Source: an uncultured Bacteroidota bacterium (GTDB lineage: Bacteria > Bacteroidota > Bacteroidia > Flavobacteriales > Flavobacteriaceae). From it: a stretch of DNA of 64,000 nucleotides. The notes under the pieces are model-generated. The model was not told where the DNA came from. It ran no database searches and saw only the letters and a list, made by a program, of their open reading frames with translations. Made by a program: the position numbers and the translations under genes. The stretch is from contig CACEAZ010000006.1 of NCBI GenBank assembly GCA_902557655.1, forward strand, positions 1 through 64,000, written 5' to 3'. Position 1 is the stretch's first letter; every line of letters starts with the position of its first letter. Below, piece after piece: positions 18,631 through 20,025 of this stretch.

Positions 18631-19701
18631 ATGAATTCAGGAGACCTTGTTAAGTCAGTGATTAAATTATCATTAATTGCTCTTTTAATATTTGTTTTAT
18701 ATAAATTAAAATTAGGTTTATTATACGTATTTATAGCCTTAATTTTAACCTTAATTGTCAATCCTTTAAACAAACTATTTTTTAAAAAACTAAAGCTTAG
18801 TAAAACTTTTTCATCTATTATTTCAATTACTTTCCTGATTTCATTTTTTGCTATGATTATCGGATTAATTGTGCCAGTTTTAACCAAACAAGGTCAAAAC
18901 CTTTCACTCTTGAATAATAAGGAGTTTAGGGCAAATTTTGATTCAACCATTACAACGATAAATAATTATTTTGAAAATCAACAATTAAGTATTTTTGATT
19001 TTTTCACAGATTTAAATATTATCTCAGATATTGATTTTAGTTTTGTTACTCAACTTTTCAATTCAATTATTTCACAAATAGGAAGCTTGAGTATAGGTAT
19101 TCTTTCTGTCTTATTTATTACTTTTTTCTTCTTAAAAGACGGAAATAAAATCTTTGAAAACTTTATAGATTTTTTTCCAAGAAAACAAAGTGCTAAATTA
19201 AAAGCCTCTTTTGATACAATAAATATCCTTTTAACCAGATATTTCACTGGTGTTTTGATACAGGTTTTAATTCTTTTTGTTTTCTACTATACACTTCTTC
19301 TTATTCTAGGTGTTGAGAATTCATTTGTTATCGCCTTTATTTGTGCTATCCTAAATATTATTCCATACTTGGGCCCTCTAATAAGTGTAATCTTAATGAT
19401 GGTTTTATCCATAACAAGTAATTTAGATAATATTGTTTTAGATAATTATATATTTAATTCCGTGTTTATTTTTGTTGGTTTTTCAATTATTCAATTTGTC
19501 GACAATTTTTTTCTTCAACCCTATATATTTTCATCTTCGGTAAAATCACATCCTCTCGAAGTTTTTATTGTTATTATATTTTCTGGAATTCTTTTTGGTA
19601 TTTTCGGTTTGATTATAGCAATACCTCTATACACAACGTTGAAGGTAATTTTTGTAAGCTTTTTTGATATTAGGAAAATAATATCAAATCTTGTGAAATA
19701 A
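18631..19701 (+). CDS. AI-2E family transporter (permease)
   Basis: Polytopic membrane protein with PYLGPLIS, QFVDNFFLQPYIFSSSVKSHPLEVF, GIFGLIIAIPLYTTLKV. Confidence 0.85.
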   Translation: MNSGDLVKSVIKLSLIALLIFVLYKLKLGLLYVFIALILTLIVNPLNKLFFKKLKLSKTFSSIISITFLISFFAMIIGLIVPVLTKQGQNLSLLNNKEFRANFDSTITTINNYFENQQLSIFDFFTDLNIISDIDFSFVTQLFNSIISQIGSLSIGILSVLFITFFFLKDGNKIFENFIDFFPRKQSAKLKASFDTINILLTRYFTGVLIQVLILFVFYYTLLLILGVENSFVIAFICAILNIIPYLGPLISVILMMVLSITSNLDNIVLDNYIFNSVFIFVGFSIIQFVDNFFLQPYIFSSSVKSHPLEVFIVIIFSGILFGIFGLIIAIPLYTTLKVIFVSFFDIRKIISNLVK

Positions 19702-19705
19702 TTTA

Positions 19706-19819
19706 TTATTTCAATTTTGTACTTTTATTTAAAACTAACCAATGAAAAAAACATTTATTCTTGCGAATCTTATTTAATTTTTCTCTTCTCATGTCCAACG
19801 TTAATTTTACGTGAGCCAT
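19706..19819 (-). pseudogene. Remnant of the N-terminus of a Bacteroidota tyrosine-type integrase (arm-binding domain), 37 codons
   Basis: Manual translation of the minus strand gives MAHVKLTLDMRREKLNKIRKNKCFFHWLVLNKSTKLK*; the start resembles MAxVKxTLDxRRKKxDGTyPLvxRlxhNxKST of phage/ICE integrases, then stops; no catalytic domain follows. Confidence 0.6.
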
Positions 19820-19843
19820 AAGCAAATAATTTAGTGTTAGAAA

Positions 19844-19898
19844 ATGTGCAAACGATGTGCAAACTTTTGTTGATAATCAACGTTTTGACAGACAAAAC
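19844..19898. repeat. att-like repeat cluster: tandem ATGTGCAAAC (x2, 11-nt period), palindrome GTTGATAATCAAC, inverted repeat GTTTTG-ACAGA-CAAAAC
   Basis: Direct reading: 19844-19853 and 19855-19864 identical 10-mers; 19869-19881 palindrome; 19882-19887/19893-19898 inverted repeat. Confidence 0.8.
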
Positions 19899-19906
19899 AT
19901 AAGCAT

Positions 19907-19943
19907 CCTAAAACAAAAAACCTCCTGAATTAATCAGAAGGCT
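19907..19943 (-). terminator. Intrinsic terminator of the tRNA operon
   Basis: Minus strand CCTTCTGA-TTAAT-TCAGGAGG followed by TTTTTTGTTTT. Confidence 0.75.
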
Positions 19944-19951
19944 GTAATCTG

Positions 19952-20025
19952 TGATCGCGAAAGGATTCGAACCTTTGACCGTCTGCTTAGAAGGCAGATG
20001 CTCTATCCAGCTGAGCTACGCGACC
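19952..20025 (-). tRNA. tRNA-Arg (anticodon TCT)
   Basis: Cloverleaf read on minus strand: GGTCGCG...CTTCTAA loop...GGTTCGAATCC...CGCGATCA. Confidence 0.96.

Follow-up and report, generated by a model that had tools for sequence, protein, structure and literature searches.

A probable integration scar at a tRNA-Arg gene joins a predicted integrase start to the remains of a lipoprotein gene

Results

Remains of two genes in one short ORF

We analyzed a 64,000-nucleotide stretch of DNA (hereafter, the window) around a short open reading frame (ORF) that lies between an intact AI-2E family transporter gene and a cluster of minus-strand tRNA genes, Arg(TCT)-Pro(TGG)-Ser(GCT) (Table 1). The ORF, 37 codons and a stop on the minus strand at 19706-19819, exists exactly as the preliminary description had claimed, with a translation that agrees letter for letter with the window sequence, and its location downstream of tRNA-Arg(TCT) is borne out by ARAGORN. 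Its length is unremarkable, as many ORFs of this size are listed in the window. The 4 nt between the end of the AI-2E gene (19701) and the ORF stop, to which the preliminary description had drawn attention, turn out to be uninformative about any element: they belong to a host spacer that is ancestral and identical to that of the congener G020.

Table 1. Features of the tRNA-Arg locus, with positions in the window, strand and supporting evidence.
Feature	Positions	Strand	Evidence
AI-2E family transporter, intact left flank	18631..19701	+	PF01594, E 2.3e-41; 99.6% aa identity to G020 over 256 aa
Ancestral host spacer, AI-2E gene to lipoprotein gene	19702..19741	.	Identical to G020, ungapped alignment
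Rest of ORF, codons 15-37 and stop, not integrase	19706..19777	-	Antisense to lipoprotein stub and host spacer
Dead 5' end of lipoprotein gene, MKKTFILANLI*, in-frame TAA at 19775-19777	19742..19787	+	90% identity over 49 nt, E 1.6e-12
Junction, similarity switch from lipoprotein gene to integrase, shared pyrimidine-rich tract	19776..19790	.	12-nt sliding identity
Predicted integrase stub, first 14 codons MAHVKLTLDMRREK	19778..19819	-	N-terminus PSSM; ATG 25 nt after repeat pair
tRNA-side arm derived from the element (attL side), with a terminator and integrase leader of its own	19820..19950	-	No match in 20 congeners; similar layout in L071, L125
Paired direct repeat of integrase leader, GTTTGCACAT-C-GTTTGCACAT on minus strand	19844..19864	-	Recurrence at integrase starts
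Terminator-like hairpin after tRNA-Arg	19919..19943	-	1 found vs 0.7 expected in shuffles; stem resembles L071, L125
tRNA-Arg(TCT), presumed integration target	19951..20025	-	ARAGORN; duplicated segment of same tRNA bounds G381 island

In the same interval G020, the closest congener, has an intact lipoprotein gene (MKKTFILTHLILFLFSCENEP..., 220 aa) on the plus strand, which runs tail to tail with tRNA-Arg. The window keeps the ATG of this gene at 19742, from which the frame runs for 11 codons before meeting the TAA, and residues 11-37 of the minus-strand ORF are 88.9% identical to the antisense of the start of the G020 lipoprotein gene and spacer. Intact homologues of the lipoprotein are present in nine of the 21 genomes of the genus; G000, the genome of the window, is without a complete copy in an assembly that is 81.7% complete, and in G012 and G008 the gene has been lost from this place entirely, leaving a gap of about 70-95 nt between AI-2E and tRNA-Arg. 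The lipoprotein shows only a weak similarity to Lcl_C (E 0.035), and a search of solved structures with it gave no match. A genus-specific lipoprotein family that shows this weak Lcl_C similarity was noted at L002:845-1501; it lies tail to tail with tRNA-Arg and has been lost in several congeners. Reading the whole ORF as mere antisense of the lipoprotein gene was a candidate explanation that we dropped after the result of the leader search described below.

The preliminary description had taken the entire ORF for a decayed integrase N-terminus, which is upheld for codons 1-14 as integrase-like and fails for codons 15-37, which are antisense to the lipoprotein gene. We scored N-termini with a position-specific scoring matrix (PSSM) built from 11 distinct integrase N-termini. 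All of these were taken from genomes other than that of the window, which makes the ranking independent of it, although the set was gathered by means of the repeat pattern described below. The 14 codons scored 21.7 bits and ranked first among the 2,415 open starts of the 64-kb window, with the next best at 2.3 bits. By this sequence comparison, codons 1-14 are predicted to be the genuine start of an Arm-DNA-bind_5 tyrosine integrase (integrase start MAHVKLTLDMRRE, leader TTTTCTAACACTAAATT). The core-binding SAM-like and catalytic domains are gone, with the ORF stopping after 37 codons, and the ORF is therefore a remnant rather than a member of the Arm-DNA-bind_5 integrases. A similarity search with all 37 residues, which the preliminary description had put forward, found no match in Pfam (PF17293 included), as expected with only about 14 integrase residues remaining; in the PSSM, residues 1-14 strongly match the N-termini of family members. 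No other PF17293 or Arm-DNA-bind_5 integrase was found in G000, an assembly about 82% complete; its two PF00589 proteins are each about 300 aa, Xer-like in size.

A paired-repeat leader between the tRNA gene and the stub

A perfect pair of 10-mers, ATGTGCAAAC at 19844 and 19855 (a 10-bp repeat reading GTTTGCACATCGTTTGCACAT on the minus strand), lies between the terminator of the tRNA-Arg gene and the ATG of the stub; only one other 9-mer repeat with such short spacing occurs in the 64-kb window. From their position and recurrence, the paired repeats are probably arm-type integrase sites, an assignment that we treat as putative. The leader sequence at 19790-19950 had no match in any of 20 congeners. 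In G020 and other congeners the tRNA-Arg terminator is a different one, placed directly after tRNA-Arg without a leader, and the site is uninterrupted. Immediately beyond the 3' end of the tRNA gene, the window has putative arm-type repeats and an integrase gene start, retaining only the tRNA-proximal ~175 bp of an island-type layout. As judged from sequence, the repeat pair and stub appear not to be chance features, and the leader is the strongest evidence for an integrase origin. The preliminary description had made no mention of this leader.

We scanned 84,980 bacterial and archaeal genomes with the pattern TGTGCAAACNNTGTGCAAAC and found 53 loci, about half of them in Bacteroidota. In those Bacteroidota, the repeat pair typically lies 48-103 nt past the 3' end of a tRNA gene (Asn, Met, Val, Lys or Arg) and 23-36 nt ahead of the ATG of an integrase whose first residues resemble MANVKTTLDTRRAKSDG or MVTYKVLLDTRRAKSDG, and the N-termini that follow these leaders match Arm-DNA-bind_5. 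The repeat-to-ATG spacing in the window is the same as in L069, L072/L121, L091 and L125. Among 60 relatives, the exact repeat pattern matched only the window; among 60 members of the order, the leader subtype TTTT-N-ACTAA, common to L071 and L087, was found only in G000, and the parent element was not found.

About half of the Bacteroidota leaders examined precede either an intact integrase or one that extends past the end of the locus. Others precede an integrase stub, of 82 aa in G025, 152 aa in L107 and a few codons in L065 and L078, and tRNA-Pro of G034 is followed by a decayed N-terminus that contains an internal stop. No integrase follows the leaders of L071 and L087, both of which are located at tRNA-Arg(TCT); for L071, the downstream sequence was limited to 302 nt. 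Bare paired-repeat leaders or stubs 3' of tRNA genes recur in L123, L128, L107, L065, L078, L071, L087 and L127. An Arm-DNA-bind_5 match also lies 230-330 bp downstream of tRNA-Pro, the neighbor of tRNA-Arg, in seven of 60 relatives.

Three further observations concern these leaders in general. Most intact ones (L121, L123, L125, L091, L069, L072) carry an inverted motif, GACCATAA...TTATGGC, over the integrase start codon, which may serve as a site of autoregulation; in the window, the upstream half of this motif is missing. A contig labeled Rhizobium sp. (L090) holds an integrase with a Flavobacteriaceae-type leader, and the label is probably a binning error. At two Mucilaginibacter loci, L080 and L099, the repeat pair stands just ahead of a fragment that resembles a tRNA 3' end, an arrangement that may represent the far-end arm of an element of this kind.

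An occupied tRNA-Arg site in a relative

The preliminary description had suggested that the site may be an integration hotspot in relatives, and that occupied sites might be sought by comparing the interval from tRNA-Arg to AI-2E across related genomes. We found tRNA-Arg occupied in G381, a member of the same family, and the interval in the congener G020 holding the intact lipoprotein gene. In G381 (L126), the same tRNA-Ser/Pro/Arg cluster is followed by the leader repeat pair, the 25-nt spacing and an intact 405-aa integrase with domains PF17293, PF13102 and PF00589. This integrase is part of an island of ~11.7 kb (L126:7814-19582) that also contains an HTH-like ORF and hsdM, hsdS and hsdR of a type I restriction-modification system, and a 62-nt exact copy of tRNA-Arg sequence lies 11.7 kb away as the expected attR. 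Islands with such a leader do therefore use tRNA-Arg(TCT), and the hotspot suggestion is substantiated to the extent that the same tRNA-Arg is occupied by an intact integrase island in a relative. Whereas the G381 island is intact, with a tRNA duplication at its far end, the window has only the part nearest the tRNA. Searches with the G381 integrase found no relatives in viral contigs, and in phage and plasmid records only matches below 60% identity, around 30% among the matches listed.

The junction and how it may have arisen

In an ungapped 12-nt sliding comparison, the lipoprotein gene matches at 10-12 of 12 positions up to 19773 and at only 3 of 12 by 19791. Agreement with the G025 integrase increases from 4 of 12 to 9 of 12 over 19764-19785 (9 of 12 within 19776-19785). 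No close relative of the window's integrase was found, so the junction is located only to within about 15 nt. Both parent genes are pyrimidine-rich on the plus strand at this place, which makes a deletion guided by short similarity the simplest reading.

We propose that in the lineage of G000 a mobile island, whose tyrosine integrase was of the CTnDOT/Arm-DNA-bind_5 type, entered tRNA-Arg(TCT) at its 3' end. Beside the tRNA it would have placed a terminator, an integrase gene and paired arm-type repeats, all supplied by the island, a layout seen in the relative. The window has a single copy of the tRNA end, and with attR gone, it is the G381 site from which we infer integration into the window's own tRNA-Arg. 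A later deletion would have had its ends at about codon 14 of the integrase and codon 13-16 of the lipoprotein gene, in a short tract similar in both. Since the similarity switches within this shared tract, one deletion probably took the rest of the integrase, the body of the element, attR and about 200 lipoprotein codons. What was left over would be a non-functional attL-side scar in which the integrase stub abuts the lipoprotein stub, unable to excise by itself because recombinase and attR have been removed. The preliminary description had held that an element was once present at tRNA-Arg and was excised or deleted; its former presence is borne out by the leader repeats, the stub and the occupied site in G381, and of the two fates a deletion is needed, simple excision being excluded because the tRNA-side arm and leader are still there. 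Overall, we regard island integration at tRNA-Arg(TCT) followed by one deletion, leaving the integrase/lipoprotein scar, as very likely.

There is a slight chance that the end of an integrase-leader contig was instead joined to the AI-2E/lipoprotein side during assembly, given that the 81.7% complete assembly is in 45 contigs and that the ends of mobile elements are classic misassembly points. The join lies, however, inside the coding starts of both genes with no assembly repeat there, both flanks are syntenic with G020, and the lipoprotein stub has a nonsense change and extra substitutions next to a flank identical to G020, as in a decaying stub.

A chance origin of the integrase similarity, with the ORF made up of random spacer and the opposite strand of a decayed lipoprotein gene, would fit the 22 of 37 codons that are antisense to the lipoprotein start and the lack of a Pfam match for the 37 aa, but the N-terminal 14 residues score 19 bits above all of the remaining 2,414 open starts, and the repeat pair, its 25-nt spacing to the ATG and the neighboring tRNA reproduce integrase leaders elsewhere. 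The repeat pair followed after 5-35 nt by ATGG occurs in five of 400 genomes of the family, and the reversed control pattern in none; besides the window, three of the four loci are integrases (G354, G025 and G381) and one is not (G281). The leader strongly disfavors a chance origin, which we consider very improbable. Least probable is that the ORF encodes a functional small protein or that the leader is a retained regulatory element: the frame is open with a natural start and scars reduced to the leader remain at tRNA-Arg in L071 and L087, yet the ORF is in none of the 20 congeners, another gene lies antisense to its second half, and scars elsewhere end at different codons, as decay would give.

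Discussion

Island integration followed by deletion makes the window feature a well-supported but ordinary integration scar of a known kind. In its N-terminus, in the position of its start relative to the repeats and in its adjacency to a tRNA gene, it resembles the Arm-DNA-bind_5, or IntCTnDOT-subgroup, integrases (PF17293, PF13102, PF00589), a subgroup whose members are found mainly in Bacteroidetes (PMC8138268); unlike them, it keeps about 14 codons and has neither the core-binding nor the catalytic domain. The defective prophage KplE1 at argW of Escherichia coli is likewise a tRNA-Arg element with its integrase gene beside the tRNA, and its integrase promoter sits inside attL (PMC2951348). 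KplE1 differs in keeping a functional integrase and both att sites, and its integrase belongs to an unrelated subgroup (PMC2951348). No published description of such scars was found in the literature searched, which lay mostly outside subscription journals.

We think it improbable that tRNA-side leader scars (terminator and paired repeats, with or without a stub), here and at tRNA genes of several other Bacteroidota, have been kept by selection and are not passive leftovers. Under that reading they might, for instance, terminate the tRNA genes or offer landing or decoy sites to subsequent islands whose integrase is of this type.

A small-genome bacterium bears a clean example of a known scar type, an integrase control region with ~14 codons, which is of modest general interest. 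The paired GTTTGCACA repeat 3' of a tRNA gene is a usable marker with which occupied sites, stubs and bare scars can be counted across Bacteroidota, including in marine lineages whose elements are gone. Arm-DNA-bind_5 integrases occur in only two of the 21 genomes of the genus, and a genus almost free of them would still have gained and lost a tRNA-targeted island, at the cost of a neighboring gene.
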